NCBI GenBank assembly: GCA_020161065.1
Contig: JAIUPH010000019.1
Coordinates: forward strand, 62,001 to 126,000
Direction of reading: 5' to 3'
Length of the DNA stretch: 64,000 bases
Source: Pseudomonadota bacterium
GTDB lineage: Bacteria; Pseudomonadota; Gammaproteobacteria; Burkholderiales; Burkholderiaceae_C
This document shows, in pieces, positions 1 to 20,591 of this stretch. Positions within the stretch are counted from its first letter, which is position 1. Each line of letters opens with the position of its first letter. The position numbers and the translations under genes were made by a program. The notes beneath the pieces are model-generated. The model did no database searches, had not been told where the DNA came from, and saw nothing but the letters and a program-made list of their open reading frames with translations.

Positions 1-684
1 CATGAACGAGCGCGTCATGCGGCTGATGTAGGCCATCGAGAACGCGCCCAGCAGCGCCGCCGGCAGCGCCAGGTGCGACAGCGCGTTGCGAAAAGCCTCC
101 CACTCGCCGGCCCACGCGGTGTCCAGCAGCAGCAGCCCGGTGACGGGCGTCAGCGTGTACTCGTACGTCACGTCGATGCGCCCCGGCCCGGCCACCCAGC
201 CCAGCTTGGCGTAGAACACCACCAGCGCCATCAGGCCCAGCCAGAACACCGGCACCGAGTAGCCGGCCAGCCCCAGCACGCGCACCGCCTGGTCGACCCA
301 GCCGCCGCGCCGCACCGCCGCCCACACGCCCAGCGGCACGCCGAGGCCGGCGCCGATCAGGATGCCGGCGGTGGCCAGCTCCAGCGTCGCCGGAAAGGCG
401 CGCAGCAGGTCTTGCAGCACCGGGCGGCTGGTCAGCACCGACGTGCCGAAGTCGCCGGCCGACACCTTCTGCAGATAACGCCAGAACTGCTGGTAGCGCG
501 GCAGGTCCAACCCCAGCTCGGCGCGTACGCGCTGCACCACGTGCTCCGGCGCGCGGTCGCCGGCGATGGCGATCACCGGGTCGATCGGCACCACGCGGCC
601 GATGAAGAAGGTGACCGCCAGCAGCCCCAGGTAGGTGACGGCGATCACGGCGGCGAAGCTCGCCGCCGCGCGCAGCCGACGCAT
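1..684 (-). CDS. ABC transporter permease, DppB/OppB type (3' end outside window)
   Basis: The minus strand reads open from an ATG at 684 to the window edge, giving the first 228 residues of an inner-membrane permease of the peptide (DppB/OppB) family. It has a TM helix near residues 10-30 (LGLLAVTFFIGRVVPIDPV), then the periplasmic stretch ending in GDFGTSVLTSRPV, followed by the conserved core with ATLELATAGILIG and GYSVPVFWLGLM. DppB-type proteins are usually about 310-335 aa, so roughly 100 residues are missing. The start codon overlaps the stop of the upstream binding-protein gene (TGATG), so the two are one translationally coupled operon; DppC/D/F partners would lie to the left. Next to a murein-recycling cluster, import of murein peptides is a reasonable guess but not shown. 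Confidence 0.9.
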   Translation of the reverse strand, partial: MRRLRAAASFAAVIAVTYLGLLAVTFFIGRVVPIDPVIAIAGDRAPEHVVQRVRAELGLDLPRYQQFWRYLQKVSAGDFGTSVLTSRPVLQDLLRAFPATLELATAGILIGAGLGVPLGVWAAVRRGGWVDQAVRVLGLAGYSVPVFWLGLMALVVFYAKLGWVAGPGRIDVTYEYTLTPVTGLLLLDTAWAGEWEAFRNALSHLALPAALLGAFSMAYISRMTRSFM

Positions 685-2303
685 CAGCGTTTGGTCACCT
701 TGAAGAGATAGGTGGAATCGGACGTTGGGCCGAGCTGCAGCCCTTCGACGTTGTTGCGGAACGCCGCCACCTCGATCTGCTGGAACAGCATCACGAAGGG
801 GCTGCTGCGGCGGAACTCGGCCTGGATCTCGTCGTACATCGCTTTGCGCTTGTTGGCGTCGCGCTCCAGCACCGCAGCGTCGCTTTGCCGGGTCAGCTCG
901 GGAATCGCCCAGGCGTTGCGCCAGGCCAGCGGCTTGCTTTTGGCGTCGTCGCCGTTGTCGGGGTTGCGCGCGAAGGTGTCGGCGTTGGTATGCGGGTCCC
1001 AGTAGTCGGCGCCCCAGGTGCCGATGTAGATGTCGTGCTGGCGGGCGCGGTACTTGGTCAGTGTCTGCTTGCCGTCGCCGGGGATCAGCTCCAGCTCGAT
1101 GCCGCCGCGCTTGAGGCTTTGCTGCATCGCCTCGGCGATGGCGGTGATCGGCTGCACGCTGCGCGTGTCCATCGTCACCTTGAAGCCGTTGGGGAACCCC
1201 GCTTTCGCCAGCAAGGCTTTGGCCTTGTCGACGTCCAGCTTGTAGGGCTTGGCGCTGGACGCGCCCAGCATCCCCGCGGGCAGGAAGTTCTGGTGCACGA
1301 CGCCGATGTTCTTCATGATGGTGTCGCCGATCGCCTGGTAGTCGACCAGCCACTTGAAGGCCTCGCGCACCTCGGGCTTGGCCAGCGTCGCGTTCTTCTG
1401 GTTCAGGCTGAAGTAGTAAAGCGTGCCCTTGGCGGTGGCGGTGGTCTTCACCTCCTTGTGGACCGACAGCGCCTGCAGGTCCTGCGGGCCCAGGTTGCGC
1501 GCGATGTCGACGTCGCCCTTTTCCAGCAGCAGGCGTTGCGTGGCCGGCTCCTTCAGGTGGCGGTAGAGCACGCGCGCCAGCGCCGGCTTCGGGCCCCAGT
1601 AGTTGTCGTTGCGCTCCATCGCGACGACCTCGTTGGCGCGCCATTCGCGGATCTTCAGCGGCCCCGATCCGGCGTACGCCGTCTTCAGCCAGCCGTAGCC
1701 CATGTCGCCGTTGGCTTCCTTGGACAGCACCAGCTTCTTGTCCACCACCGCGGCGACGTTGGCGGTCAGGCAGTTGAGCACGAAGCTGGGCGCGAACACC
1801 TTGTCGGTGGTGAGCGTCAGCGTCAGCGCGCCGGTCTGCTTGATGCGCTCGCGCACGTTGTCCTTGGCGAAGCCGAACTGCGTCAGGATGAAGGCCGGCG
1901 TCTTGTCCAGCAGCACGGCGCGCTGCAGCGACCACACCACGTCTTCGGCCGTCAGCGCGTTGCCGCTGGCGAACTTCAGCCCCGGCTTCAGCTCGAAGCT
2001 GAAGGTCTTGCCGTCGGCGCTGACGCTCCAGCTCTTGGCGAGGTCGCCCACCAGCTTGGACGGGTCGGAGACGTCGAAGCGCAGCAGCCGGTCGTAGGCG
2101 TTGCCCATCACCTCGCCGGCCGAGATCTCGAAGGCCTCGGCCGGGTCCAGCGTGATGATGTCGTCGAAGGCGGCGGCGACGACCAGCGTGTCCTTGGGCG
2201 TGGCCGCCTGCAGCGGCGGCGCGCCGGCGGCGGCCAGCAGGGTGAGCAGGGCGGCGGCGGCGGCCGCGCGGCGGTTCAGCGGTGGAAGCGGTGGAAACGA
2301 CAT
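684..2303 (-). CDS. ABC transporter substrate-binding protein, family 5 (DppA/OppA-like)
   Basis: A 539-aa periplasmic solute-binding protein of extracellular family 5 (SBP_bac_5). The N-terminus is a cleavable signal peptide ending near GAPPLQAATPKD. Family features follow: an FDDIITLDPAEAFEISAGE start of the mature protein, KSWSVSADGKTFSFELKPG, and LTAEDVVWSLQRAV. The ATG at 2303 is chosen over the longer reading (2408) because the signal peptide starts there and AAGGA lies 8 nt upstream; the extra 35 residues would be Pro/Arg-rich non-family sequence. It is first in an operon with the permease. Only 44 nt separate it from the divergent serine hydrolase, so the two promoters must overlap. 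It probably binds peptides; murein tripeptide (MppA-like role) is possible from context only. Confidence 0.92.
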   Translation of the reverse strand: MSFPPLPPLNRRAAAAAALLTLLAAAGAPPLQAATPKDTLVVAAAFDDIITLDPAEAFEISAGEVMGNAYDRLLRFDVSDPSKLVGDLAKSWSVSADGKTFSFELKPGLKFASGNALTAEDVVWSLQRAVLLDKTPAFILTQFGFAKDNVRERIKQTGALTLTLTTDKVFAPSFVLNCLTANVAAVVDKKLVLSKEANGDMGYGWLKTAYAGSGPLKIREWRANEVVAMERNDNYWGPKPALARVLYRHLKEPATQRLLLEKGDVDIARNLGPQDLQALSVHKEVKTTATAKGTLYYFSLNQKNATLAKPEVREAFKWLVDYQAIGDTIMKNIGVVHQNFLPAGMLGASSAKPYKLDVDKAKALLAKAGFPNGFKVTMDTRSVQPITAIAEAMQQSLKRGGIELELIPGDGKQTLTKYRARQHDIYIGTWGADYWDPHTNADTFARNPDNGDDAKSKPLAWRNAWAIPELTRQSDAAVLERDANKRKAMYDEIQAEFRRSSPFVMLFQQIEVAAFRNNVEGLQLGPTSDSTYLFKVTKR

Positions 2304-2347
2304 GGGGGAGGTCCTTGGGTGGGGCCTGTGAGGCGGCGCAACATACC

Positions 2348-3730
2348 ATGCAGCCCATGCGTGCCGCTCTCCTCGCCCCGACGCTGGCCCTCTTGTTGGC
2401 CCCCACACTGGCCCCGACGCTGGCCCTCGCGCTGGCCTTGCTCACCGGATGCTCGACGATGCAGCCCCTCCCCGCCCTTGACCGTGAACTGGCCGCGCTG
2501 GTCGGCGACCCCCAGGCCACGGTGGCGCCGGTGGCCGCGGTCGCCGCGCTGGCCATCCGCGACGGCCGCGTCGTCTACGCCAACCAGTTCGGCATCCGCC
2601 ACCCGGCCGCGCCGGCGTTGCCGGTGACCGCGGCCACGCGCTTTCGCGTCGCGTCGATCTCCAAGCTGGTGGTGGCACTCGGCGTGCTGCGCCTGGTCGA
2701 GGCCGGCCGGCTCGACCTGGACGCCGACGTCAGCGCCGTGCTGGGCTGGACGCTGCGCCACCCGCAGTTCCCCGAGCTGCCGATCACGCTGCGCCTGCTG
2801 CTCAGCCACCGCTCGGGCCTGTCCGACGGCGGCGAGCGATATGGGTTCGACGGCCGCACCAAACTGCAGGACGTGCTGCAGCCGCAAGGCGCGCTCTATG
2901 CCGACGGCCTGAACTGGCGCCGCGACACGCGGCCGGGCAGCGACTTCGAGTACGTCAACCTGAACTACGGCGTGATCGCCCAGGTGATGGAGCGCGCCGG
3001 CGGCGAGCGCTTCGACCGCCTGATGCAGCGCCTGGTGCTGCAGCCCTTGGGCCTGCAAGGCGGCTTCGACCCGTCGCAATGGCCGCGCGCCGAACAACTC
3101 GACGTGGCCGCGATGCTGCGCAAGCGCAGCGACGACGGCGTTTGGAACCCCGCCGGCCTCTGGGTGCTGCAGGCCGACGACTTCCGCGACCGGCCGGCGC
3201 CAGCGCCCGCCGGACTGGATGGTTATGTGGTGGGCAGCAACGGCACGCTGTTCGGCCCGCAGGGGCGGCTGCGCATCTCGGTGCAAGGCCTGGGCGTGGT
3301 GATGCAGATGCTGCTGGACCGGGGCCGGCACCAGGGCCAGGCCTTTCTGCGGCCCGAGTCGGTGGCGCTGCTGGCCAGCGAGCAATGGCGGCGCACGGGG
3401 CCGCCGCCGAAAGACGGCGAGAACGTCGGCGCCTGCGCCTGGGGCCTGGGCGTGCAGATCTTCACCGACCGCGCCGAGCCCGGCTGCGGCGACCGCCTGG
3501 TCGACGGCGGCGGCTTCCAGGGCTTCGGCCACACCGGCGACGCCTACGGCCTGATGGGCCTGTTCGCGCTGGACCCGGCCACGCGGCGCGGCATGGTGGT
3601 CATCGTCAACGGTCCCGGCGTCGACCCGCAAGCGTTTCCGCCGCACTACTCGGCGCTGTACCGCTGGCAGGAGATTGCCGCCACCGCGGTGTGGCGGCAT
3701 GCGCTGCAGGGCGCATCATTGCAGCCATGA
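2348..3730 (+). CDS. Serine hydrolase lipoprotein, beta-lactamase/PBP-like (class C fold)
   Basis: A 460-aa member of the serine beta-lactamase/transpeptidase-like family. The N-terminus is a lipoprotein signal with an unusually long, repetitive hydrophobic core and lipobox LTGC (Cys about residue 35). The three catalytic motifs are visible: SISK (Ser103, Lys106), YVN in EYVNLNYG, and HTG in GFGHTGDAYG near the C-terminus. Such proteins act on D-Ala-containing peptides or other esters and amides in the periplasm; many are not true beta-lactamases. The start at 2348 is preferred (2357 also possible); upstream codons overlap the divergent gene. Its stop overlaps the murQ start (ATGA), so it heads the murein-recycling operon and probably acts on murein peptides. 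Confidence 0.85.
   Translation: MQPMRAALLAPTLALLLAPTLAPTLALALALLTGCSTMQPLPALDRELAALVGDPQATVAPVAAVAALAIRDGRVVYANQFGIRHPAAPALPVTAATRFRVASISKLVVALGVLRLVEAGRLDLDADVSAVLGWTLRHPQFPELPITLRLLLSHRSGLSDGGERYGFDGRTKLQDVLQPQGALYADGLNWRRDTRPGSDFEYVNLNYGVIAQVMERAGGERFDRLMQRLVLQPLGLQGGFDPSQWPRAEQLDVAAMLRKRSDDGVWNPAGLWVLQADDFRDRPAPAPAGLDGYVVGSNGTLFGPQGRLRISVQGLGVVMQMLLDRGRHQGQAFLRPESVALLASEQWRRTGPPPKDGENVGACAWGLGVQIFTDRAEPGCGDRLVDGGGFQGFGHTGDAYGLMGLFALDPATRRGMVVIVNGPGVDPQAFPPHYSALYRWQEIAATAVWRHALQGASLQP
2375..2428 (+). repeat. 18-nt direct repeat inside a signal-peptide coding region
   Basis: GCCCCGACGCTGGCCCTC occurs identically at 2375-2392 and 2411-2428, with a related partial copy between them (about 2399-2413). 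It encodes the reiterated APTLA pattern of the serine hydrolase signal peptide, which suggests replication slippage has lengthened the hydrophobic core. Confidence 0.7.
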
Positions 3731-4653
3731 CGCCCCCGACGCCCCTGACGCCCGTGACGCCCCTGAAGCCTGGCACCGAGACCCCGCACGGCGAGCACGC
3801 CGAACTCGACCGTTATCCCACCGACCGATTGCTGCGCACGCTGGTCGACGACCAGGCGCAGGCGCTGGCCGCGGTGCAGGCCGCGGCGCCGCAGCTGGCG
3901 CGCGCGGTGGACGCGGCGCTGCCGCGCATCAACGCCGGCGGGCGGCTGGTCTACGTGGGCGCCGGCACCTCGGGGCGGCTGGGGCTGCTGGACAGCGTGG
4001 AGCTGAACCCCACCTTCAGCTGGCCGGCCGAGCGCGCGCTGGCGTTGATCGCCGGCGGCCGCGGCGCGCTGTTCGAAGCGGTGGAAGGCGCCGAAGACGA
4101 GCGCGAGCAAGGCGCGATCGACATCCGCCTGCACGAGCTGGGCAGCGACGACGTGGCGCTGCTGCTCGCCGCCTCGGGCAGCACGCCCTACGTGCTGGGC
4201 GCCTGCGAGGCGGCGCGCGCGGCCGGCGCGCTGACGCTGGGCTTTTCCAACAACCCCGGCGCGCCGCTGGTGCAGGCCGCCGAGATCGGCATCGTGCTGG
4301 ACACCGGGCCCGAGCTGGTGTCGGGCAGCACGCGGCTGAAGGCCGGCACGGCGCAGAAGATCGCGCTCAACAGCTTCTCGACCGCGCTGATGGTGCGGCT
4401 GCACAAGGTCTACGGCAACCTGATGGTCGACCTGCGCGCCACCAACGCCAAGCTGCGCCGCCGCGCGCTGGCGCTGACGATGCGCGCCAGCGGCGCCGAC
4501 GAGCTGGCCGCCGAGCGCGCGCTGCGCGACAGCGGCTTTCGCGTGAAGGTGGCCATCGTCGCGCTGCGCCAGAACGTCTCGGTCCATGAAGCCGCGGCGC
4601 GGCTGCAAGCGCACGACGGCGACTTGCGCGCCGCGTTGGCCGCTGCCGGTTGA
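3727..4653 (+). CDS. murQ: N-acetylmuramic acid 6-phosphate etherase
   Basis: A 308-aa MurQ, which cleaves the D-lactyl ether of MurNAc-6-phosphate to give GlcNAc-6-phosphate and D-lactate in the cytoplasm, the key step of MurNAc recycling. It carries the SIS sugar-phosphate-binding domain with GAGTSGRLGLLDSVE (residues ~78-92), the catalytic-region signature VEGAEDE, ASGSTPYVLGA, and the family hallmark LKAGTAQKIALNSFSTALM. The length matches the family (about 300). The first ~20 residues are Pro/Thr-rich (PTPLTPVTPLKP), probably disordered. The ATG overlaps the stop of the serine hydrolase gene (ATGA). It is followed by an AmpG/MurT-like transporter, a typical partner. Confidence 0.97.
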   Translation: MTPPTPLTPVTPLKPGTETPHGEHAELDRYPTDRLLRTLVDDQAQALAAVQAAAPQLARAVDAALPRINAGGRLVYVGAGTSGRLGLLDSVELNPTFSWPAERALALIAGGRGALFEAVEGAEDEREQGAIDIRLHELGSDDVALLLAASGSTPYVLGACEAARAAGALTLGFSNNPGAPLVQAAEIGIVLDTGPELVSGSTRLKAGTAQKIALNSFSTALMVRLHKVYGNLMVDLRATNAKLRRRALALTMRASGADELAAERALRDSGFRVKVAIVALRQNVSVHEAAARLQAHDGDLRAALAAAG

Positions 4654-4657
4654 GCCG

Positions 4658-6019
4658 GTGTCAGGTCGTCTTCCGCGGGCCGAGCGCCGGGCCGCTCCCA
4701 AGCCGGCCCGCATCCCCTCGGGGGATCGGCCGACGTACCCGTCGGCCGAGGGGCTCTCATCCCCATGGTGGTGGGTGCCCAGCCTGTATTACGGCCAGGG
4801 CCTGCCCTATGTCGTGGTGATGACGCTGGCGGTCGTCCTCTACAAGAACCTCGGCCTCGACAACGCGGCGATCGCGCTCTACACGAGCTGGCTCTACCTG
4901 CCCTGGGTGATCAAGCCGCTGTGGTCGCCGCTCGTCGACCTGCTGCGCAGCAAGCGCTGGTGGATCGTCACGCTGCAGCTCGTCATCGGCGCGGCGCTGG
5001 CCGCGGTGGCGCTGACGCTGCCGACGAGCGGCTTCTTCCGCCTCAGCCTGGCGGTGTTCTGGCTGCTGGCCTTCGCGTCGGCCACGCACGACATCGCGGC
5101 CGACGGCTTCTACATGCTGGCGCTGCCGCAGCACCAGCAGGCGGCCTTCGTCGGCGTGCGCAGCCTGTTCTACCGGGTGGCGATGATCAGCGGCCAGGGC
5201 GGCCTGGTCTACGCCGCCGGCCGGCTGACCGAGCGGCTCGGCGGCCCGGTGCCGGCCTGGCAGGCGGTGTTCTTCGGCCTGGCCGCGATCTTCGGCGGAC
5301 TGTTCCTGTGGCACCAGTGGCGGCTGCCGCGGCCGGCGGCCGACCACGCCACCACCGCCGGCGGGCAGGACCTGTGGCGCGGCTTCGGGGAGACCTTCGC
5401 GTCGTTCTTCCGCCGGCCCGACATCGGCCTCGTGCTGGCCTTCCTGCTGCTGTTCCGCCTGGGCGAGGCGCAGCTCGTCAAGCTGGTCACGCCCTTTTTG
5501 CTGGACCCGCGGGCGCAAGGCGGGCTGGCGCTGTCCACCGCCGACGTCGGCCTGGTCTACGGCACCGTGGGCGTCGGCGCGCTCACGGCCGGCGGGCTGC
5601 TGGGCGGCTGGGTGATCTCGCGCCACGGCCTGATGCGCTGGCTGTGGCCGATGGTGGCGGCGATCCACCTGCCCAACCTGTTGTTCGTCGCGCTGGCGGC
5701 CTGGCAGCCGCAAAGCCTGGCCCTCATCACCGCCGCGGTGGCCTGCGAGCAGTTCGGCTACGGCTTCGGCTTCGCGGCCTACCTGATGTTCATGATCTGG
5801 GTGGCCGACGGCCCCGCCAAGACCGCGCACTACGCCTTGTGCACCGGCTTCATGGCGCTGGGCATGATGCTGCCCGGCATGTCGAGCGGCTGGCTGCAGC
5901 AGCAGATGGGCTACGCGCCGTTCTTCGGCTGGGTGTGCCTGTGCACGCTGCCCTCGGTGTGGGTGGCGGCGAAGCTGCGCATCCCGGCGGACTTCGGCCG
6001 CAAGGAAGCGCAGACGTGA
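4658..6019 (+). CDS. MFS transporter, AmpG/MurT-like (PAT family)
   Basis: A polytopic inner-membrane major-facilitator protein (about 12 TM) resembling AmpG, the anhydromuropeptide permease, and MurT-type MurNAc transporters. The family pattern is visible at the start: LYYGQGLPYVVVMTLAVVLY, TSWLYLPWVIKPLWSPLVD and RSKRWW, followed by SATHDIAADGFYM. The start is uncertain: no in-frame ATG precedes TM1 except one deep in murQ (4586). GTG at 4658 lies just after the murQ stop but would translate the intergenic repeat; GTG at 4775 would start directly in TM1. ATG 4765 is out of frame. Its stop overlaps the next start (GTGA). With murQ upstream and a kinase downstream, import of MurNAc or anhydromuropeptides is the likely job. 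Confidence 0.85.
   Translation: MSGRLPRAERRAAPKPARIPSGDRPTYPSAEGLSSPWWWVPSLYYGQGLPYVVVMTLAVVLYKNLGLDNAAIALYTSWLYLPWVIKPLWSPLVDLLRSKRWWIVTLQLVIGAALAAVALTLPTSGFFRLSLAVFWLLAFASATHDIAADGFYMLALPQHQQAAFVGVRSLFYRVAMISGQGGLVYAAGRLTERLGGPVPAWQAVFFGLAAIFGGLFLWHQWRLPRPAADHATTAGGQDLWRGFGETFASFFRRPDIGLVLAFLLLFRLGEAQLVKLVTPFLLDPRAQGGLALSTADVGLVYGTVGVGALTAGGLLGGWVISRHGLMRWLWPMVAAIHLPNLLFVALAAWQPQSLALITAAVACEQFGYGFGFAAYLMFMIWVADGPAKTAHYALCTGFMALGMMLPGMSSGWLQQQMGYAPFFGWVCLCTLPSVWVAAKLRIPADFGRKEAQT
4676..4753 (+). repeat. Two-hairpin intergenic repeat, copy 1
   Basis: 58 nt (4676-4733) are identical to 43865-43922. The 5' half can form CGGGCCG/CGGCCCG. The 3' half forms a longer hairpin at 4714-4753: CCCCTCGG and TCGGCCGACG on the 5' side, loop TACC, then CGTCGGCCGAGGGG, with an 8-nt bulge on the 5' side. 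The second copy differs in the stem by paired changes (ACG/CGT here, ATG/CAT there), so base pairing is conserved. The 3' arm supplies GAGGGG, a potential ribosome-binding site in front of the following gene. Confidence 0.85.
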
Positions 6020-7167
6020 GCGCCCGACCGACTCTCCAACGTCTGGCATCACTGGACGCCTTCCGCGGCTTCGCCATCGCCGGCATGGTGCTGGTCAACA
6101 ACCCCGGCGACTGGAACGCGCTGTACGCGCCGCTGGCCCACGCGGCCTGGAACGGCTGGACCTTCACCGACTGGATCTTCCCGTTCTTCCTGTTCATCGC
6201 CGGCGTCTCGATGACGATCTCGCTCGACGCCCGCGCCGCCGCCGGCGCCTCGCGTCGAACGTTGGCGCTGACGATGGCGCGCCGCGCCGCGCTGATCATC
6301 GCCATCGGCCTGCTGCTCAACTGGGTGCCGCGCTTCGACCTCGCCACCGTTCGCATCCCCGGCGTGCTGCAACGCATCGGCCTGTGCGTGCTGCTGGCCG
6401 CGCCCATCGTGCTGGCCTGGCGCTGGCGCGGCGTGCTGGCCTGGATCGTCGGCCTGTGCGCGCTGTACGCGCTGCTGATGCTGGCGGTGCCGGTGCCCGA
6501 CGCGCAAGGCGTGGTCGCCGCCGGCGCGCTGGAGCCCGGCCGCGACTTCGGCGCCTGGCTGGACCGCCTGCTGCTGGGCCCCCATCTGTGGGCGGCGTCC
6601 AAGACCTGGGACCCCGAAGGCCTGGTCAGCACGCTGCCGGCGCTGGGCACGCTGCTCTCGGGCGTGCTGGCCGGGCGCTTCCTGGCCGCGCCGCGACCGG
6701 CGGCCGAGCGCACGGTGTGGCTGCTGCTGGCCGGGCTGGCGCTGCTGGCGCTGGGCGAGGCGATGGACCGGCTCTTCATGCCCATCAACAAGAGCCTGTG
6801 GACGCCGTCGTACATGGTCTTCATGGACGGCTGGGCCTTGCTGGTGTTCGGCGCCTTCTACTGGCTGCTGGACGCAGCGCCGCAAGCCCGGCTGCGCGCG
6901 GCCAGCGCGCGCGCCTTCGAGCCGCTGGTCATCTACGGCATGAACGCGCTCTTGATCTTTGCCGTCTCGGGCCTGGTCGCCAAGCTGATGCTGTTCTTCA
7001 AGGCGGGCGACCCGCCGCAGTCGTTGAAGGCCTGGACTTACGCGCCGATCCAGGCGCTGCCGCTGGCGCCGCGCGACGCTTCGCTGCTGTGGGCGCTGCT
7101 GTTCAACGGCGCGATGTTCGCGCTGGCCTGGTGGCTGTGGCGCCGCCGCTGGTTCTTCAAGGCCTGA
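6016..7167 (+). CDS. nagX: DUF5009/NagX-like membrane protein (HGSNAT-related acyltransferase fold)
   Basis: A 383-aa multi-spanning membrane protein (about 10 TM) of the family that includes bacterial NagX and human heparan-alpha-glucosaminide N-acetyltransferase. The N-terminus has the signature RLASLDAFRGFAIAGMVLVN and DWIFPFFLFIAGVSM. VPRFDLATVRIPGVLQRIGL, GLVSTLPALGTLLSGVLAG and VIYGMNALLIFAVSG also match the family. nagX genes sit in GlcNAc-utilisation loci of other proteobacteria, where transport or acetylation of amino sugars at the membrane is proposed; the biochemical role remains uncertain. The GTG start at 6016 overlaps the transporter's TGA (GTGA), and only 7 nt separate it from the glycosidase gene, so it is part of the murQ operon. 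Confidence 0.85.
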   Translation: MSARPTLQRLASLDAFRGFAIAGMVLVNNPGDWNALYAPLAHAAWNGWTFTDWIFPFFLFIAGVSMTISLDARAAAGASRRTLALTMARRAALIIAIGLLLNWVPRFDLATVRIPGVLQRIGLCVLLAAPIVLAWRWRGVLAWIVGLCALYALLMLAVPVPDAQGVVAAGALEPGRDFGAWLDRLLLGPHLWAASKTWDPEGLVSTLPALGTLLSGVLAGRFLAAPRPAAERTVWLLLAGLALLALGEAMDRLFMPINKSLWTPSYMVFMDGWALLVFGAFYWLLDAAPQARLRAASARAFEPLVIYGMNALLIFAVSGLVAKLMLFFKAGDPPQSLKAWTYAPIQALPLAPRDASLLWALLFNGAMFALAWWLWRRRWFFKA

Positions 7168-8808: not shown

Positions 8809-8840
8809 GCGTTCTGGCAGCAGACGCAGACGGGACGGAC

Positions 8841-11522: not shown

Positions 11523-12139
11523 CGACCGAAGTGCGCACCATCGGCATCGACGAGCTGCCGGCCCATGCCGACTACCGCGCGCTGGCCGCCATCGCCGGGC
11601 TGCAGGTCGACCTGCGCTACGCCAGCCCGCGCAACCTGCTGGGCCGCGACCTTTATTCGCCGCACGACTGCGCCTGGCTGCACCGCGAGGCGGCCGATGC
11701 ACTGCAGCAGGCCGTGCACTGGCTGCAGCGCGAACGGCCCGACTTGCGCCTGTGCGTGCTGGACGCCGCGCGCCCGCAACGCGTGCAGGAACGGTTCTGG
11801 GCCCACGTGCAAGGCACGCCGATGGAGCCCTATTTCGCGCCGCCCGAGCGCGGCTCGATCCACAGCTACGGCATGGCCGTCGACATCACGCTGGCCGACG
11901 CGCAAGGGCAAGAGCTGGACATGGGCACGCCCTTCGACGACACCACCGAGCGGTCGCACCCGGCGCTGGAGCACCGGCATGCGGCGGCCGGGCTGCTGAG
12001 CGAGGCCCAACTCGCCAACCGCCGCCTGCTGCGCACGGCACTGCTGCAAGCCGGCTGGCAGGCCATCAGCACCGAGTGGTGGCACTTCGACTTCGGCGAC
12101 CGCGACGAAGTAAGGCGGCGGCTGCCGCGGATCGTTTGA
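11519..12139 (+). CDS. ddpX: D-alanyl-D-alanine dipeptidase, M15D (DdpX/VanX-like)
   Basis: A 206-aa zinc metallopeptidase hydrolysing D-Ala-D-Ala. The family motifs are present: LQVDLRYASPRNLLGRDLYS near the N-terminus, LDAARPQRVQERFW, the zinc motif SIHSYGMAVDIT (SxHxxGxAxD), DMGTPFDD, and the catalytic/zinc motif STEWWHFDFGD (ExxWH). No signal peptide, so it acts in the cytoplasm, as E. coli DdpX does when D-Ala-D-Ala from murein turnover serves as carbon and nitrogen source. It overlaps the LysR gene by 4 nt. In this locus it would degrade D-Ala-D-Ala released by turnover and imported by the peptide ABC transporter, rather than confer glycopeptide resistance. Confidence 0.93.
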   Translation: MTTEVRTIGIDELPAHADYRALAAIAGLQVDLRYASPRNLLGRDLYSPHDCAWLHREAADALQQAVHWLQRERPDLRLCVLDAARPQRVQERFWAHVQGTPMEPYFAPPERGSIHSYGMAVDITLADAQGQELDMGTPFDDTTERSHPALEHRHAAAGLLSEAQLANRRLLRTALLQAGWQAISTEWWHFDFGDRDEVRRRLPRIV

Positions 12140-12416: not shown

Positions 12417-12500
12417 TTTTCATGCTACCCGATAAGATCGCATCAGCCAACAGTTTCAGGATGCCGTGACGTCCTTCAAGAGTTCGCTCGACTCCTTGTC

Positions 12501-12896: not shown

Positions 12897-12919
12897 GCGC
12901 AGAACCCAAGGAACACACG

Positions 12920-13162: not shown

Positions 13163-13617
13163 TGCCGGGTTTAACGCACCCGCCGCTGCGGCTGGTACTC
13201 GATACGAATGTCGTGATGGCCGGGCTGCTGTGGAATGGGCCACCTCGTCGGCTGTTGCAGGCGGCCATCGACGGCGAGGTCGATCTCTTCAGCAGCGCGG
13301 TGCTGCTCGATGAACTGGCCCATACGCTGGGCTATTCGAAGTTCACCAAGCGCATCGAGAGCTTCGGCACCAGCATCGCGGCGCTGGTGGCGCAGCACAC
13401 GGCGCTCGTCAGCCTGGTCGCGCCGGCCAGCGTGCCGCGCCTGGTCGCCAACGATTCCGACGACGATCACGTCATCGCTGCGGCCGTCGCGGCGCGCGCC
13501 GAGCTGATCGTCACCGGGGATCGCAAGCACCTGCTGCCCATCGGCAGCCATCAGGGCATCGCCATCGTCTCCGCACGGGAGGTCGTCGACAGGCTTGAGG
13601 CAAAAGGCATCGGTTAA
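13162..13617 (+). CDS. PIN-domain toxin (putative toxin-antitoxin ribonuclease)
   Basis: A 151-aa PIN-domain protein. Acidic Mg-binding residues are in place: LRLVLDTNVVMAGLLWNGPP (first Asp), SSAVLLDELAHTLGYSKF (Glu), NDSDDDHVIAAAVAARAELI and IVTGDRKHLLPI (Asp). This is the PRK-like/COG1569 subgroup of putative toxin PIN proteins, which cleave RNA. It overlaps the upstream antitoxin gene by one base. Together with the Xre regulator and decayed module it forms a small accessory island between murein genes. Confidence 0.88.
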   Translation: MPGLTHPPLRLVLDTNVVMAGLLWNGPPRRLLQAAIDGEVDLFSSAVLLDELAHTLGYSKFTKRIESFGTSIAALVAQHTALVSLVAPASVPRLVANDSDDDHVIAAAVAARAELIVTGDRKHLLPIGSHQGIAIVSAREVVDRLEAKGIG

Positions 13618-13984: not shown

Positions 13985-15478
13985 TCAAGGTCCCGCCGCC
14001 CTGGGCGCAGCAGCAGCGGCCTCGAACCGCGTCCGCCCCACCCAATCGACCAGCGCATCCACCAGCGCCCGCATCTGGCGCGCGGGCAGGCGGTCCTGGT
14101 TGAACATCGCGACGACGATCTGCGGCTGGCCGGTGGCGTCGGGCACGGTGCCGGCCAGGGCGACCACGTTGCGCAGGCTGCCGGTCTTCATGCGCGCCGC
14201 GCCGGCGGCAGGGCCATCCTTCAAGCGGTTGCGCAAGGTGCCGTCGATGCCGGCGATCGGCAGGCTGGCGACGAACTCAGGCGCCCAGCGGCTGGCCAGG
14301 CCGGCGCGCAGCACGCCTTCGAGCTGCGCCGGCGTGACGCGCTCGCTGCGCGACAGGCCCGAGCCGTTGTCCAGCACGAAGCCGGTGTCGTCGATGCCGT
14401 GGCCGCGCAGCCAGCCGCGCAGCGCGCGCTCGGCGCGCTGCAGCGTGGGCTCGGCGGCCTCGCCGGGCGCGGCGCGGCCGATGGCCAGCAGCAGCGTGCG
14501 CGTCAGCGTGTTGTCCGACGGCTTGTTGATCGCGCGCACCAGCTCGGCCAGCGGGCGCGAGCCGTGCTCGGCCAGCAGCCTGGCGTCGGCCGGCGCGCTG
14601 CCTTCGCGCACGCCGCCGCGCCAGCGGCCGCCCAGGCCCGCCCACAGGCCGCGCACGAGGCGGGCGATGTAGTCGTTGCGCTCGATGACGTTGAAGGCCA
14701 CGCTGCGGTCGCAGCGCGCCGGCCAGGTGCCGCGCAGCACCACGTCCATCTGGCGGCCGGGCCGCGGCGGGCGCAGCTCGGGCGTCTTCCAGCCTTCGTC
14801 CCAGCGGCTGCAGTCGCCTTCCACCAGCGTCATCTCGTGCGTCACGCGCACGCCGGCCAGCGGCGTCAACGGCAGCACCTGCAGGCCGCGCTGCTCGTCG
14901 ACGAAGACGTCCACGCGCAGCAGGTTGTCGTTGACCAGCAGCGCATCGGGGATGACGTTGTAGCCGGCCTCGGGCGCGTCGTCGAAAGGCGGCTGGCCGA
15001 GGTCCAGCCGCGGCGGCTGGAAGGCGCTGCGGTCGAGCACGAGGTTGCCGCGCCAGTCCTGCAGGCCGCGGTGGCGGGCGCGCTGCAGCATGGCCTGCAG
15101 CGCCTGCTGCGACAAGTCCATGTCGGCGCCGCCTTGCAGCACGAGGTCGCCCTTCAGCACGCCGTCGACGATGGGGCCGGTGGCCAGCAGCCGCGTGCTG
15201 CCGCGCCAGGCCGGGCCCAGTTGCTCCAATCCCACAAGGGTTGTCACCAACTTCATGGCCGATCCGGGCTGCAGCGGCCGATCGGCCTGGTGCGCCACGT
15301 GGCGCGGCCCGGCGCCCACGGGAGCGACGACCAGGCCCAGCGCGTCGTCCGGCACGCCGGCCTCGGTGAGCAGCCGCGCCAGAGGCGGCGGCAGCTCGGC
15401 GCGGGCATCGAAGGCGCACGCGACCAGGGCGACGGCGGCGGCGAACAACAGGGGTGAGAGCAGCGGTGGGCAGCGCAT
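13985..15478 (-). CDS. dacB: D-alanyl-D-alanine carboxypeptidase/endopeptidase (PBP4)
   Basis: A 497-aa periplasmic penicillin-binding protein of peptidase family S13. It has a signal peptide (MRCPPLLSPLLFAAAVALVA, cleavage near ARAELPP). Active-site motifs: SAMK in PGSAMKLVTTLVGLE (SxxK), SDN in INKPSDNTLTRTLL (SxN), and KTG in ARMKTGSLRNVVAL. DacB cleaves D-Ala-D-Ala ends and D-Ala-mDAP cross-links, releasing peptides from the sacculus. ATG 15478 is chosen because the signal peptide starts there; the longer frame adds Arg-rich sequence. It is divergent from the TonB receptor, with the shared regulatory element in the 196-nt gap. Confidence 0.95.
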   Translation of the reverse strand: MRCPPLLSPLLFAAAVALVACAFDARAELPPPLARLLTEAGVPDDALGLVVAPVGAGPRHVAHQADRPLQPGSAMKLVTTLVGLEQLGPAWRGSTRLLATGPIVDGVLKGDLVLQGGADMDLSQQALQAMLQRARHRGLQDWRGNLVLDRSAFQPPRLDLGQPPFDDAPEAGYNVIPDALLVNDNLLRVDVFVDEQRGLQVLPLTPLAGVRVTHEMTLVEGDCSRWDEGWKTPELRPPRPGRQMDVVLRGTWPARCDRSVAFNVIERNDYIARLVRGLWAGLGGRWRGGVREGSAPADARLLAEHGSRPLAELVRAINKPSDNTLTRTLLLAIGRAAPGEAAEPTLQRAERALRGWLRGHGIDDTGFVLDNGSGLSRSERVTPAQLEGVLRAGLASRWAPEFVASLPIAGIDGTLRNRLKDGPAAGAARMKTGSLRNVVALAGTVPDATGQPQIVVAMFNQDRLPARQMRALVDALVDWVGRTRFEAAAAAPRAAGP

Positions 15479-15520
15479 GGCGGGCGGTCGGCGCAGTCTA
15501 CGGGCGCGGCGCCGGCGGCG

Positions 15521-15674: not shown

Positions 15675-18509
15675 ATGAAACTCACGCCCCTGGCCGCCTC
15701 GCTGGCCTTGCTCGGCCTGTCCACCGTCGCGCTGGCGCAGTCCGCGCCGCAGCGCGTGGAGATCACCGGCAGCAGCATCAAGCGCATCGCCGACGAAGGC
15801 GCGGTGCCGATCCAGGTGATCACGCGGCAGGAGCTGGAGCGCCAGGGCATCGTCACCGCCGAGCAGTTGATCAACTCGCTCAGCGCCAACGGCACCGGCC
15901 TCGACAACCTGGCGGCCAACGCCGACGTGGTAGCCGGCGCGGCGCGCGGCAACAACGGCGCCTCGTGCGCCAACCTGCGGCTGCAGGGCTGCGCGGCCAC
16001 GCTGATCCTGCTCAACGGCCGCCGCGTGGCGGCGCACGGCCTGAATGGCGGCGTGGTCGACGTGCAGCAGATTCCGATGGCCGCGGTGGACCGCATCGAG
16101 GTGCTGAAGGACGGCGCCTCGGCCATCTACGGGACGGACGCCATCGGCGGCGTCATCAACTTCATCCTGCGCAAGAACTACCAGGGCCTGGAGGTGCAGG
16201 CCTTCACCGACATCACCGAGGCCGGCGGCGGCAACATCAACCGCGTCAAGCTGACCGGCGGCTTCGGCGACCTCGACAAGGACAACTTCAACGTGCTGCT
16301 GGCCTTGAGCCGCAGCGAGAACAAGGCGCTGCGCGGCGACCAGCGCGACTTCGTCAACACCTTCCAGCCCAACCGCGGCTTGTCGGTGGACACGCGCGGC
16401 ACGCCGATCGCCACGCTGTTCACGCTGAGCTCGCTGTACACCGCGCTCAGCCGCGACAACCTCAACAGCACCGGCCGCGGCACCGGGCCCACGGTGGCCG
16501 GCGGCACCCAGACCTACAACGGCATCAACGTGCTCGACCTGCCCGGCGGCGCCGGCTGCAGCAGCGTGGACGGCATGGCCGCCTACGACGAGGTGCTGTG
16601 GGCCACGCCGGCGGCCAAGTACGGCTGCGCCTGGGACACCGGCCGCGCCGCGGTGCTGCAGCAGCCGGTGACCAACACCAACGCCGTGCTGCGCGGCACG
16701 CTGCGCCTGGGCGAGCACCAGCTCTACGCCGAGTTCACCGGCGCCAAGGTGGAATCGAAGAAGAGCTTCTCGGCCAACCAGATCTCCAGCAGCACCAGCA
16801 CCACCAGCCCGTTCTACAACCTGGCCTACCCCAGCACCGGCAGCTCGTACAACGAGGTCTTCAACGCGCTGGTCGGCACCTTCCCGCAGCTCGAAGCCAA
16901 CCGCGGCCAGCCGCTGGCCTTCCGCTGGCGCTGCATGCCTTGCGGCAACCGCGAGATCGAGACCGAGAGCGAGACCAGCCGCTTCCTGCTGGCCGCCGAC
17001 GGCCCGCTGTTCGGCACCTGGAGCTACCGCGCCGGCGCCTCGCGCGCCACCAGCGAAAGCACCTCGGTGCTGGGCAGCGGCTACTTCTACGGCCGTGAGT
17101 TCGCGGCGCTGATCAACACCGGCGTGCTCAACCCCTTCTCGCTGACGCAGACGCCCGAGGCCATGGCCGCGCTGCAGAACGTGATGGCCTCCGGCGTCAC
17201 GCTGTACGGCGGCAAGTACACGGTGGAGCAGATCGACGCCACCGTCAGCGGCCCGGTCTTCAAGCTGCCCGCCGGCGACGTGATGGCCGCCATCGGCACC
17301 GACATCCGCACCGAGAAGTACCGCTTCAACGGCAACGCCACCGACCTGACGACGCAGACCCGCATCTTCAACGCGCCGTTCGACAGCATCAACACGCTGG
17401 ACACCGTCAAGCGCGACATCAAGGCGGTGTTCGCCGAGCTGCAGGTGCCCATCACCAAGCAGCTGGAGCTGAACCTCGCGGCGCGCTACGACGACTACAC
17501 CGGCTTCGGCAGCACCACCAACCCCAAGGTGTCGCTGCTGTTCAAGCCGCTCAACCAGCTGGCGCTGCGCACCTCGTACAGCACGGGGTTCCGCGTGCCG
17601 ACGTTCAACCAGCTGTTCTTCGGCGTCACCGAGTCCACCTACGCCGGCAAGGACCTGGCCGACCCGGGCAAGTGCGCGTCCGGCGTGGTCAGCGCCACCA
17701 CCGGCTGCGAGTCGATCACGCCCATCATCCTGACCGGCGGCAAGCCCAACCTCGGCCCCGAGGAAAGCAAGCAGTGGAACGCCGGCATCGTGTGGGAGCC
17801 CAACGCCAACTTCAACGTCAGCGTCGACTACTGGGACATCCGTCGCGACGGCACGGTGCAGACACTGGCCTTGAGCGACCTGGTCAAGAACTACACGCTG
17901 TTCCCCGAGAACTTCATCCGCGACGCCAACGGCAACCTGGTGGCCATCGACAACCGCTGGGTCAACGCCGGCCAGACCATCACCAAGGGCGTGGACGTCA
18001 ACGCCCGCGTCAACGGCCGCCTGAGCGACGCGCGCTGGTCGGTCATCCTCGACGGCACCTACCTGCTGGAGAAGAAGTCGCGGCTGCTCGCCAGTTCGCC
18101 TTTCGGCGCCAGCGAGATCGGCAGCTTCACGCGCGCCGGCGACCTGGGCCTGCGCTGGAAGCACACGCTGACCGGCACCTACACCCGCGGCGTGTGGACC
18201 GGCATGCTGCAGAACGTCTACAAGAGCGGCTACACCGACTACGTGCTGCCCGGCGTGGCCAACGGCAGCATCGTGCCGCCGGACTGGAACCCCAAGGTCA
18301 AGGCCTACCAGCTGTGGAACGCCAGCGTCGCCTACTCGGGCGTCAAGAACCTGACGCTCACCGTCGGCGTGAAGAACCTGCTCGACAAGGACCCGCCGTT
18401 CTCCGCCGCCTACGACAGCAACACCGGCGCCGGCAGCTCGTGGGAACCGCGCGTGGCCGATCCGCGCGGCCGTTCGTACACCTTGACCGTCGACTACAAG
18501 TTCTTCTGA
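15675..18509 (+). CDS. TonB-dependent outer-membrane receptor
   Basis: A 944-aa TonB-dependent transporter. The signal peptide is MKLTPLAASLALLGLSTVALA. It is followed by RVEITGSSIKRIADEGAVPI (TonB-box/plug entry), the plug with QELERQGIVTAEQLINSLS, LILLNGRRVAAHG and VLKDGASAIYGTDAIGGVIN, then a 22-stranded barrel ending in aromatic YTLTVDYKFF, as outer-membrane proteins do. AGGAG at 15661 is 9 nt before the ATG. It belongs to the oligosaccharide/peptide type with KDGASAIYGTDAIGGV rather than a known siderophore or cobalamin group. Placed among murein genes and sharing the kinase promoter element, uptake of cell-wall fragments is the leading hypothesis; substrate unproven. Confidence 0.95.
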   Translation: MKLTPLAASLALLGLSTVALAQSAPQRVEITGSSIKRIADEGAVPIQVITRQELERQGIVTAEQLINSLSANGTGLDNLAANADVVAGAARGNNGASCANLRLQGCAATLILLNGRRVAAHGLNGGVVDVQQIPMAAVDRIEVLKDGASAIYGTDAIGGVINFILRKNYQGLEVQAFTDITEAGGGNINRVKLTGGFGDLDKDNFNVLLALSRSENKALRGDQRDFVNTFQPNRGLSVDTRGTPIATLFTLSSLYTALSRDNLNSTGRGTGPTVAGGTQTYNGINVLDLPGGAGCSSVDGMAAYDEVLWATPAAKYGCAWDTGRAAVLQQPVTNTNAVLRGTLRLGEHQLYAEFTGAKVESKKSFSANQISSSTSTTSPFYNLAYPSTGSSYNEVFNALVGTFPQLEANRGQPLAFRWRCMPCGNREIETESETSRFLLAADGPLFGTWSYRAGASRATSESTSVLGSGYFYGREFAALINTGVLNPFSLTQTPEAMAALQNVMASGVTLYGGKYTVEQIDATVSGPVFKLPAGDVMAAIGTDIRTEKYRFNGNATDLTTQTRIFNAPFDSINTLDTVKRDIKAVFAELQVPITKQLELNLAARYDDYTGFGSTTNPKVSLLFKPLNQLALRTSYSTGFRVPTFNQLFFGVTESTYAGKDLADPGKCASGVVSATTGCESITPIILTGGKPNLGPEESKQWNAGIVWEPNANFNVSVDYWDIRRDGTVQTLALSDLVKNYTLFPENFIRDANGNLVAIDNRWVNAGQTITKGVDVNARVNGRLSDARWSVILDGTYLLEKKSRLLASSPFGASEIGSFTRAGDLGLRWKHTLTGTYTRGVWTGMLQNVYKSGYTDYVLPGVANGSIVPPDWNPKVKAYQLWNASVAYSGVKNLTLTVGVKNLLDKDPPFSAAYDSNTGAGSSWEPRVADPRGRSYTLTVDYKFF

Positions 18510-18567: not shown

Positions 18568-19602
18568 ATGCAGCGCCGCCATTGCCTGAGCGCCGCGCTG
18601 GCCGCGGCCGTGGCCGGCTGCGCGACGCCGCCCTTGGCGATGCCGCCGCCGCCGCCGCGGCGCCCGCCGCGGCTGCGGCCGGGCGACACCATCGGCCTGT
18701 TCGCGCCGAGTTCGCGGCTGCAGCCCGAGCACGTGGCGCGCGCGCTCGACGCCGTGCGCTCGCTGGGCTTCGAGCCGCGGCTGGGCCGCCACGTGCTGGC
18801 GGCGCAAGGGCACTACGCCGGCAGCGCCGAGCAGCGCGCCGAAGACTTCAACGCGCTGTGGCGCGACGGCGAAGTGCGTGCGCTGTGGGCGCTGCGCGGT
18901 GGCGCCGGCGCGGCGGCCCTGCTGCCGCTGCTGGACTGGGCCGCGTTGCGCGCCGACGCCAAGGCGGTGATCGGCTACTCCGACCTCACGGCCTTGCTGC
19001 TGGGCCTGCGCGCCGGCGCCGCGCTGGTGTGCTTCCATGGGCCGTCGGCGGTGTCGCGCCTCACGCCGTTCAGCGCGGCGGCGCTGCAAGCCGTGTTGAT
19101 GCAAGCGCAGCGCGAGACGGTGCTGACGCGATCGCCCGAACACCGCCGGCGCGCCGAGGCCGAGCCGCAGTTCCGCGAGCGCGCCATCCGCGCCGGCGTG
19201 GCCGAAGGGCCGCTGATCGGCGGCAACCTGTCGGTGCTGGCCGCGCTGGTCGGCACGCCCTGGGCCGCCGATTGGCGCGGCGCGCTGCTGTGCCTGGAGG
19301 AGGTAGACGAAGAGCCTTACCGCATCGACCGCCTGCTCACCCAGTTGCAGCAAAGCCAGGGCCTGCAGCGCGCTGCGGGGCTGGTGGGCGGCGTGTTCGA
19401 GCGCTGCGAGGCCGGCCCCGATTCAACGCCGATGCCGTTGGCCGAGGTGCTGGACCGCCAGTTCGCCAGCGCCGGCGTGCCCGCCGTCTACGGCTACAGC
19501 TTCGGCCACGTGCGCGACCAGCTGACGCTGCCGCTGGGCGTGCGCGCGCGGCTGGACACGACGGCCGAGACGCTGACGCTGCTGGCGCCGGCGGTGGATT
19601 GA
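18568..19602 (+). CDS. ldcA: Muramoyltetrapeptide LD-carboxypeptidase (S66), exported form
   Basis: A 344-aa S66 peptidase that removes the terminal D-Ala from the murein tetrapeptide. The S66 core starts at PPRLRPGDTIGLFAPSS. The catalytic Ser is in AKAVIGYSDLTALL, the Glu in LLCLEEVDEEPYRIDRLL, and the His in VYGYSFGHVRDQLTLPLG. Unusually for LdcA, which is cytoplasmic in E. coli, the N-terminus is a lipoprotein-like signal (MQRRHCLSAALAAAVAGCA, lipobox VAGC), so it probably works in the periplasm. It follows the TonB receptor by 58 nt in the same direction, across a hairpin. This supports a murein-fragment function for the receptor. Confidence 0.9.
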   Translation: MQRRHCLSAALAAAVAGCATPPLAMPPPPPRRPPRLRPGDTIGLFAPSSRLQPEHVARALDAVRSLGFEPRLGRHVLAAQGHYAGSAEQRAEDFNALWRDGEVRALWALRGGAGAAALLPLLDWAALRADAKAVIGYSDLTALLLGLRAGAALVCFHGPSAVSRLTPFSAAALQAVLMQAQRETVLTRSPEHRRRAEAEPQFRERAIRAGVAEGPLIGGNLSVLAALVGTPWAADWRGALLCLEEVDEEPYRIDRLLTQLQQSQGLQRAAGLVGGVFERCEAGPDSTPMPLAEVLDRQFASAGVPAVYGYSFGHVRDQLTLPLGVRARLDTTAETLTLLAPAVD

Positions 19603-19607
19603 TGCGC

Positions 19608-20591
19608 TCAGGCCAGCGCGCGGCCGCTGGGCTTGGCGAAGTAGAACCATTCGTGGCCCGGCTCGGCCTTCGCGTTGGGGAAGACGATGCGGCCGTCGGC
19701 CGGCGCGGCGACGATGTGGCCGTCGTGCCGCACCGCGATCGGCTCGCCGGCCTTCACCGCGTCGAAGCTGGCCCATTCGCGCACGAAGCGGTCGTCGGCG
19801 TGCAGCCGGTCGGTCACCTCCGCCAGGCGCAGCACTTCGTGGTCGGTGCGCGGTGGCAGCAGGGGCAGATCGGCCGCCAGGCCCAATAACGCCAATGCCT
19901 GACGGATGGCGCGCTCGGCCACGTCGGGCGCCTTGGGGTCGGCGTGCTGGCCGCATTCCAGCGTCATCGCCCAGCCGCCGCGCGAGCGCATGTACTCCGT
20001 CGTGCCGACGCCGTAGTTGGGGTCGGCGTCGAGCAGCGTGCCGATGCGCTGGGCGCGCGCGCGGCGGCGCGCCACGCCGGCCTCGTAGACCGGCAGCCAG
20101 CCGTCGACGATGCGGCGCACGCCCACGTGGCGGGCCAGCCGCTCTTCGCTGGCCGCGTGGGCGAAAGGCTCCAGCGCGCCGCGGTTGTCGGCGGGGCCGA
20201 TCATCGCGAAGGCCTCGCCGCCGCCCTGGAACGAATGCAGGTCGAGCAGCGCATCGTGCGCGTCGAGCAGCGGGCACAGCACGTTGGCGATGCGGTCCTC
20301 GAAGTCCTGCGGCACCGCGCTCGGCCGCAGGTTGCGGTTGAGGTTGCGATCGCCCATGCGCTGGCCGCGCTCGTGCGCCAGCGGGTTGGTGATGGGCAGC
20401 AGGCTCACGCTGCCGTGGCTGATGCGCAGCTCGCCGCGGTCGAGCGCGGCCACCACGCGGCCGATACCTTGCGTGCCGGCCAGCTCGTTGCCGTGCACCG
20501 CGCCCAGCACCAGCAGCCGCGGCCCCGGCCGCAGGCCGTGGAACTGGTGCAGGCGCAGCTGGTGGCGGTTCAGCGCGTCGTCGTCGCTCAT
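19608..20591 (-). CDS. Zinc hydrolase of the succinylglutamate desuccinylase/aspartoacylase family (M14-like)
   Basis: A 327-aa cytoplasmic metalloenzyme. Zinc ligands are visible: VLGAVHGNELAGTQG (HxxE) and ALLDLHSFQGGG (His), with MGDRNLNRNLRPS and WAMTLECGQHADP (catalytic Glu) as family landmarks. The C-terminal ~100 residues form the usual beta domain ending PNAKAEPGHEWFYFAKPSGR. Members remove acyl groups from amino acids (AstE, aspartoacylase), and some relatives cleave murein peptides (MpaA is a distant M14 member). No arginine-catabolism genes are nearby, so a role on a murein peptide is possible but speculative. The ATG at 20591 is used; upstream codons belong to the GGDEF gene's antisense. 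It converges on ldcA with a 5-nt gap. Confidence 0.82.
   Translation of the reverse strand: MSDDDALNRHQLRLHQFHGLRPGPRLLVLGAVHGNELAGTQGIGRVVAALDRGELRISHGSVSLLPITNPLAHERGQRMGDRNLNRNLRPSAVPQDFEDRIANVLCPLLDAHDALLDLHSFQGGGEAFAMIGPADNRGALEPFAHAASEERLARHVGVRRIVDGWLPVYEAGVARRRARAQRIGTLLDADPNYGVGTTEYMRSRGGWAMTLECGQHADPKAPDVAERAIRQALALLGLAADLPLLPPRTDHEVLRLAEVTDRLHADDRFVREWASFDAVKAGEPIAVRHDGHIVAAPADGRIVFPNAKAEPGHEWFYFAKPSGRALA

Follow-up and report, generated by a model that had tools for sequence, protein, structure and literature searches.

A TonB-dependent receptor clustered with murein genes in a Burkholderiales genome and its probable role in peptidoglycan scavenging

The ykfABCD operon of Bacillus subtilis, which is devoted to murein peptides, encodes an S66 peptidase, an L-Ala-D/L-Glu epimerase, an NlpC/P60 endopeptidase and an Opp-type ATPase, in a Gram-positive organism that has neither an outer membrane nor a TonB-dependent receptor (TBDR). 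In Tannerella forsythia, murTKQ and the adjoining ampG provide for the transport of N-acetylmuramic acid (MurNAc), its phosphorylation and the MurQ step in the use of environmental muropeptides, according to passages of the original report (PMC5388701), whose main text mentions neither TonB nor SusC nor porin. The AmpG of T. forsythia has been examined by complementation in an E. coli reporter deficient in ampG (passage of PMC7670621). TonB-dependent transporters (TBDTs) for peptidoglycan have been predicted from gene context in the Bacteroidota, namely in Pedobacter heparinus and in a polysaccharide utilisation locus of a Urechidicola symbiont that carries murQ, ampG, an L-Ala-D/L-Glu epimerase gene, ampD and dacA (passages of PMC3400609 and PMC10199937). 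Here we describe a TBDR gene (15675..18509, + strand) that lies within a cluster of murein genes at positions 1-20585 of a 64,000-nucleotide stretch, called the window below (G000:C5:62001-126000), from the 6.29 Mb genome of a Burkholderiales bacterium (GCA_020161065.1, contig JAIUPH010000019.1). Judging from homology and gene context, we consider it probable that this cluster is a peptidoglycan-scavenging system whose TBDR imports peptide-bearing peptidoglycan fragments.

Gene identities were taken from profile searches (Pfam, NCBIfam, TIGRFAM and PRK models with curated cut-offs) and from tblastn matches. As in T. forsythia murTKQ-ampG, genes for predicted MurNAc transport, a kinase and MurQ are adjacent in the window: a MurNAc-6-phosphate etherase gene (murQ, about 3727..4653, +), a divergent AmpG-family carrier of the major facilitator superfamily (MFS; 4655..6019, +) and a BadF/NagK/MurK-type sugar kinase (about 8826..9782, +). 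The likeness to Tannerella noted in the original prediction stands for gene content but not for gene order, which differs, and the window adds the TBDR, an Opp system, DdpX, DacB and an S66 peptidase with an export signal. The Bacteroidota peptidoglycan loci, as far as the cited passages describe them, share with the window a TonB-dependent transporter beside murein genes; however, the Urechidicola locus has SusC/SusD pairs, whereas the window, in the Proteobacteria, has a non-SusC TBDR, Opp import and no SusD among the scanned proteins. Caulobacter NagA, described in passages of PMC13046382 and PMC11658791 as a TBDR for N-acetylglucosamine (GlcNAc) and chitooligosaccharides that feeds the amino-sugar pathway, is tied to that pathway like the window receptor, but in those passages it is linked to a PTS permease and the NagA/NagB enzymes and not to murein peptide enzymes.

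What is new is that a TonB-receptor peptidoglycan-utilisation locus, known as a prediction in the Bacteroidota, occurs here without SusD and in the Proteobacteria. Among the papers listed by our searches of the open-access literature, none deals with a TBDR for muropeptides in Proteobacteria, although subscription journals lay mostly outside these searches and absence from them is not proof. A search on NagX and MurT brought up mainly work on amidation by MurT/GatD. The word muropeptide does not appear in a 2024 review of TBDT substrates (PMC11658791), where peptidoglycan comes up, in the consulted passages, in connection with ExbD or colicin M, and a survey of sphingomonad TBDTs (PMC7142613) makes no mention of peptidoglycan, murein or AmpG. 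The earlier statement that such a receptor had not been described in a beta-proteobacterium is qualified by the context-based predictions in Bacteroidota (passages of PMC3400609 and PMC10199937).

The linkage of the receptor with murein genes is conserved beyond this one genome. We built a tree of 85 receptors (77 from named loci, 7 from congeners and that of the window) with a quick IQ-TREE run using SH-aLRT and no mixture model, omitting L102, which is on the same contig as G003, and the partial L116 and L117; the run warned of long branches among the outside rows. A single clade of 37 members, with a support of 100, holds the window receptor. Receptors were labelled by murein markers, including the broad S12 and BadF families, when these were matched by tblastn in the available flank (E <= 1e-12, coverage >= 0.6); labels of the seven congeners and of the window were assigned by hand from their locus genes. 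Homologues of murein genes were found in the flanks of 28 of the 37 receptors inside the clade and of 2 of the 48 outside it, the latter two (L124 and L135) having only an S66 match of 37-39%. The label changes 8 times on the tree, against a mean of 24.8 when labels are shuffled, and none of 500 shuffles was as low. Profile searches add L096, L097, L098 and L103, bringing the clade members with murein genes to 32 of 37, but they covered the inside rows and not the 46 unlabelled outside ones, so that the figures to be set against each other are 28 and 2. Homologues of murQ, nagX, the GHL10 glycosidase gene and the AmpG-type carrier gene were seen near clade members only, with none near the 48 outside rows.

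The same genome served as a control. Among the 25 regions around its other 26 TBDR matches, two held a weak S12 match (29-30%), and no homologue of murQ, the AmpG-type carrier, NagX, GHL10, the kinase, the amidase, DdpX, DacB or LdcA was found in them by tblastn at 1e-8, a search that would miss very divergent homologues. A chance neighbourhood was rejected on the recurring linkage, the clade test and this control. The original prediction had named close homologues lying beside unrelated genes as the outcome that would count against scavenging with a TBDR; we looked for that outcome and found the opposite. A rival reading is an unrelated siderophore or vitamin receptor that happens to stand here. 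The closest solved relatives of the receptor are indeed Cir, BtuB and the enterobactin receptors, and siderophore carriers of the RhtX/FptX type show a weaker kinship to the MFS carrier, but this carrier scores 177 bits with the AmpG family against 68.8 bits with RhtX/FptX, and the linkage recurs in Burkholderiales and Sphingomonadales loci. We rejected the siderophore receptor on linkage, clade test and same-genome control, and regard this explanation as highly improbable. No STN signalling domain was matched in the TBDR by profile search, and on this ground a signalling receptor was rejected. The protein matches the barrel domain PF00593 (149.1 bits) and the plug domain PF07715 (60.2 bits), both above their cut-offs, and falls well outside SusC/RagA (TIGR04056, 31.2 bits for a cut-off of 368).

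Co-occurrence was followed within the genus, in a first search covering 24 congeners and, further afield, 16 other genomes, and then in 81 genomes of the genus. With a receptor threshold of E <= 1e-110, and leaving aside four matches at 36-37% identity that include the sole match of genome G041, the receptor is found in 43 of the 81 genomes and the AmpG-type carrier in 49; both are present in 42, the receptor alone in 1, the carrier alone in 7 and neither in 31. MurQ (E < 1e-30) is present in 53 of the 81, that is in 40 of the 43 genomes with the receptor and in 13 of the 38 others. At 32 of the 45 receptor places the carrier is within 3 kb, and at 31 of these it is divergently transcribed; in the window and in G076 and G011 it lies 6-10 kb away within a window-like cluster, and for 10 places it is on another contig, a count that includes G063, a genome without any carrier match. 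We read 35 receptor loci (40 rows, from which four second halves and a fragment of 19% were subtracted, with duplicates removed by hand and several loci ending at contig edges). An oppB match follows the receptor directly on the same strand in 10 of them, a PF13354 serine hydrolase is encoded within 12 kb in 21, LdcA within 12 kb in 14, and murQ within 12 kb in only 2. The usual companions of the receptor in congeners are therefore the carrier and the peptide genes, with murQ located elsewhere in the genome.

In one congener (G022), two copies of the receptor each have their own divergent AmpG-type carrier (C73:44368-48835 and C11:231834-236203), so that receptor and carrier may have been copied or gained together. 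The PF13354 hydrolase, which is class A beta-lactamase-like, is found after the receptor in, for example, L045:5871-6920, L041:4191-5309, L046:14129-15208 and L050:1095-2390, and has no match in the window.

Beyond the congeners, scanning named genomes by profile gave at least 80 receptor loci. Taking all loci together, the cluster recurs in L043, L203, L089, L105, L109, L112 and L091. Nine loci of Massilia, Pseudoduganella and Janthinobacterium (L089, L090, L104-L109 and L112) carry dacB and LdcA in the receptor flank in all nine cases, ddpX and lysR in seven each, the amidase and the kinase in five each and GHL10 in four; neither murQ nor the carrier appears in any of the nine flanks, because both lie further out. 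Indeed, murQ and GHL10 are near the carrier orthologue in 10 of 10 genomes (those and two others); receptor and carrier are 10-15 kb apart on one contig in five of the ten (L089, L104, L105, L109 and L112), on separate contigs in L090, L106, L107 and L115, and far apart in L122. The most complete compact example among the loci examined is L091:2506-22872, from an uncultured beta proteobacterium, where about 20 kb hold oppB, oppD and oppF matches, dacB, ddpX, the receptor, GHL10, nagX and murQ, together with an S12 gene flanked by two AmpG-type carriers in tandem, the AstE/AspA gene, the kinase and the amidase. Both Sphingomonas loci (L101 and L103) have an AmpG-family carrier transcribed divergently from the receptor (316 and 324 bits), and DacB and S12 proteins are encoded nearby. 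The order in Allopontixanthobacter (L111) is DacB, TBDR, GntR, MurQ, BadF kinase, NagA (314 bits) and AmpG (385.5 bits, above its cut-off). The receptor of Rheinheimera (L096) has as neighbours a protein of the enolase superfamily (MR_MLE), an NlpC/P60 protein that contains an SH3 domain, and a regulator of the MurR/RpiR type; for a receptor neighbour in Alishewanella (L097), the best model is an L-Ala-D/L-Glu epimerase (252.6 bits for a cut-off of 500). The kinds of protein found in the B. subtilis ykfABCD operon appear piecewise next to the receptor clade.

These last loci bear on the ligand. A receptor for free MurNAc or GlcNAc-MurNAc without peptide would be a variant of the scavenging reading, and MurQ, the kinase, NagX and GHL10 in the window and its Oxalobacteraceae relatives would fit it. 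However, L122, L096 and L097 (epimerase-type) and L094 and L098 (DacB) encode enzymes for the peptide stem while their available flanks revealed no sugar gene, which favours a ligand with a peptide stem, and we find a peptide-free ligand unlikely.

Receptors of four other loci, L114 (a Brevundimonas metagenome-assembled genome, MAG), L113 (Verrucomicrobia), L092 (Opitutaceae) and L137 (Opitutus), are nested among the proteobacterial ones, and the purC of L114 is 81% like that of a Burkholderiales relative. The titles of these entries may reflect binning errors in public MAGs, or transfer, and for this reason we make no claim for those groups.

Several observations weigh against peptidoglycan scavenging through this receptor. 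The carrier occurs in seven congeners that lack the receptor, MurQ is present in the 13 receptor-less congeners mentioned above, and murQ is close to the receptor in just the two congener loci; moreover, members of a genus share ancestry, so that Fisher p-values on the co-occurrence overstate the evidence. The window carrier remains below the AmpG cut-off of 350 bits, which the AmpG of L111 passes, and its divergent type was absent at E <= 1e-25 from 8 of 8 genomes with Sphingomonadales, Rheinheimera, Alishewanella and Lysobacteraceae loci, so that the partner of the receptor there would be a canonical-type AmpG or none. Five clade members have no murein neighbour (L092, where the receptor is at a contig end, L093, L099, L110 and L137), and the labels of L095 and L100 come from S12 matches alone. 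An AF2 model of the receptor has a pLDDT of 62, and its fold matches in the PDB are generic TonB-dependent receptors only. Finally, of the 48 outside receptors, 16 have an oppB-type permease in their vicinity, so that the ligand may be a peptide without being specific to murein.

That last point leads to the reading of the receptor as a general oligopeptide importer for nitrogen scavenging, with murein enzymes nearby since D-amino-acid peptides would be among its many substrates. The oppB genes directly downstream of the receptor in 10 congener loci agree with it, as do those near the outside receptors and near two receptors on contig C26 of the same genome. It accounts poorly, however, for the restriction of murQ, nagX, GHL10 and AmpG-type carrier homologues to the neighbourhood of clade members, and for the excess of MurQ in congeners that have the receptor (40/43 versus 13/38); we therefore give it a low probability. 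The two C26 receptors (L226, G000:C26:222500-242499) adjoin each other downstream of oppB-, oppD- and oppF-type matches, are 31-35% like that of the window, and may form a sister receptor group, possibly for peptide uptake.

Returning to peptidoglycan scavenging, the families listed in the original prediction, from the Opp-type binding protein, the S12 hydrolase and MurQ to the TBDR and the LdcA-like peptidase, were recovered by our profile searches, and a possible route can be drawn from them in which we infer the ligand, the direction of transport, the order of steps, the location of the enzymes and regulation by LysR. The TBDR would actively import extracellular muropeptides and/or stem peptides across the outer membrane, and exported enzymes would then trim the fragments to sugars and short peptides. 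These would be an S12 hydrolase of the beta-lactamase/D-Ala-D-Ala peptidase fold (2348..3730, +; PF00144 153 bits, weak similarity to AmpH and PBP4B), a DacB/PBP4 (S13) D-Ala-D-Ala carboxypeptidase/endopeptidase (13985..15520, -; PF02113 266 bits, TIGR00666 208.9 bits for a cut-off of 107.8), an LdcA-like S66 peptidase (18568..19602, +; PF02016 and PF17676, both above their cut-offs, and PRK11253 at 156 bits for a cut-off of 378), an AmiD-like amidase with a peptidoglycan-binding domain (9779..10576, +; PF01510 111.8 and PF01471 39.2 bits) and a DigH-like GHL10 glycosidase (7175..8677, +; PF02638 198.5 bits). When the S66 protein was aligned with solved LD-carboxypeptidases, Ser, Glu and His residues matched, which are presumably catalytic. 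The GHL10 family we take to be kin to DigH. The latter is an E. coli glycosyl hydrolase with a part in daughter-cell separation, according to passages of PMC12288456. Lipoprotein-type export signals, judged by eye, stand at the start of the S12, GHL10, amidase and S66 proteins, so that trimming would be periplasmic or take place at the outer membrane. A DdpX-like dipeptidase (about 11519..12139, +; PRK10178 138.6 bits, short of its cut-off of 176) would split D-Ala-D-Ala in the cytosol.

Passage through the inner membrane would be shared between the divergent AmpG-type carrier, for the sugar-containing part, and an Opp-type ABC importer, for the peptides. The importer is only partly in the window, where its presence had been claimed: a peptide-type solute-binding protein (684..2303, -; SBP_bac_5, PF00496 272 bits, no NCBIfam cut-off reached) and part of an oppB-like permease (1..636, -; 42.5% by tblastn with the oppB of a relative, the match extending to -314, left of the window) are inside it, but oppD- and oppF-type matches (48% and 45% by tblastn) lie to its left, as far as -2816. 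In the cytosol, the kinase and MurQ would turn MurNAc into GlcNAc-6-P. MurQ scores 358.6 bits with NF003915 (cut-off 168) and 300.3 with NF009222 (cut-off 255), falls below the cut-off of TIGR00274 (289.6 for 302), and is the only strong MurQ match of the genome. The kinase matches PF01869 (47.3 bits); hexokinase and GlcNAc kinase rank above the MurNAc/GlcNAc kinase 8zo3 (E 3.5e-9) among its PDB relatives, and the sole model with a curated cut-off that it matches, NagK_SO3507, gives 69.5 bits for a cut-off of 370, so that an action on MurNAc is suggested by its fold family. Between carrier and glycosidase lies a NagX-like membrane protein (about 6013..7167, +; HGSNAT catalytic-like, PF07786 42.6 bits). 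A LysR-type regulator (10617..11522, +; PF03466 and PF00126) has the same position and order in L089, L105, L109, L112, L118, L221 and L223.

The absence of anmK and of nagA/nagB from the window had been read as a sign that the route is completed elsewhere, and we did find AnmK at C34:67172-68293 and NagA, above its cut-off, at C17:48490-49572, adjoined by a NagB-II-like protein (C17:47453-48463; 257.6 bits, cut-off 430 not reached). NagA and the NagB-II-like protein would feed GlcNAc-6-P into central metabolism. The genome also has a canonical AmpG at C3:66950-68437 (450 bits), which makes the window carrier, at 177 bits with TIGR00901, a second, divergent paralogue. With a canonical AmpG and AnmK outside the locus, housekeeping recycling is independent of it. 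This matters for the possibility that the receptor recaptures the cell's own turnover fragments instead of feeding on other cells, which shares the import step with our explanation and is compatible with it. The enzymes are those of recycling, and the single strong MurQ could serve both routes. On the other hand, recycling in E. coli works without a TBDR, and AnmK is present in 78 of the 81 genus genomes (in 53 of 53 of good quality), when the receptor is in only 43. Recapture of own fragments thus seems to us a minority possibility, if a less remote one than a general peptide importer.

Going beyond this locus, we lean, with less assurance than for scavenging itself, towards the view that the clade represents a TBDR lineage in Proteobacteria (Burkholderiales, Sphingomonadales and Rheinheimera/Alishewanella) dedicated to peptidoglycan fragments, apart from SusC and GlcNAc receptors and defining a SusD-less utilisation locus, and that Burkholderiales took a second AmpG-type carrier and Opp out of recycling and turned them to the consumption of other bacteria's walls. 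Recycling studies account for the passage of peptidoglycan fragments through the inner membrane, and to our knowledge the crossing of the outer membrane by external muropeptides is largely an open question. Dead bacteria offer a large store of nutrients in their peptidoglycan, and muropeptides act as signals that reach hosts and neighbours. With its clear gene context, and with members in Massilia and Janthinobacterium isolates as well, the receptor clade makes the function directly testable and would supply an annotation rule for a group of TBDRs that now carry only a general family name.

The gene at 19608..20585 (-), which had been labelled as an M14 hydrolase, matches instead PF24827, the AstE/AspA catalytic domain (51.7 bits), and may encode a zinc hydrolase that cuts a further bond. 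At E <= 1e-60 it is present in 57 of the 81 genus genomes, including all 43 with the receptor and 14 of the 38 without. At 31 of the 45 receptor places the two genes are no more than 15 kb apart, and at the other 14 they are on different contigs. In L091, it sits between carrier and kinase. A role as a mere housekeeping gene had been considered, since it follows purC in many relatives (of the 19 locus rows with this gene, 17 have purC near it), but was overturned by the co-occurrence in the genus and by the placement in L091; the hydrolase is a probable member of the cluster. A PDB search with the protein (E <= 0.1) returned four chains, the best being 2qj8 (Mlr6093) at 2.7e-7 and the others uncharacterised, AstE/AspA-like or putative metallopeptidases. 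MpaA, which we take to be a murein peptide amidase, was also considered as its identity, and none of the four chains bears that name.

Between ddpX and dacB, positions 12360-13617 hold an RstR-family repressor (NF041951, above cut-off) and a PIN-domain toxin-like gene, with a lower G+C of 64%. Since the ddpX and dacB matches are only 3-81 bases apart in L043, L203, L218 and L220, this stretch looks like an insert, perhaps the remnant of a mobile element. Further along the window, at 22484-29036, we noted by eye a large indolepyruvate ferredoxin oxidoreductase-like gene, followed by a formylglycine-generating-enzyme-like gene that adjoins a sulfatase-like gene. A tRNA-like ARAGORN match with a two-base anticodon at 35378-35470 lies inside a DUF3108 reading frame and is probably spurious.

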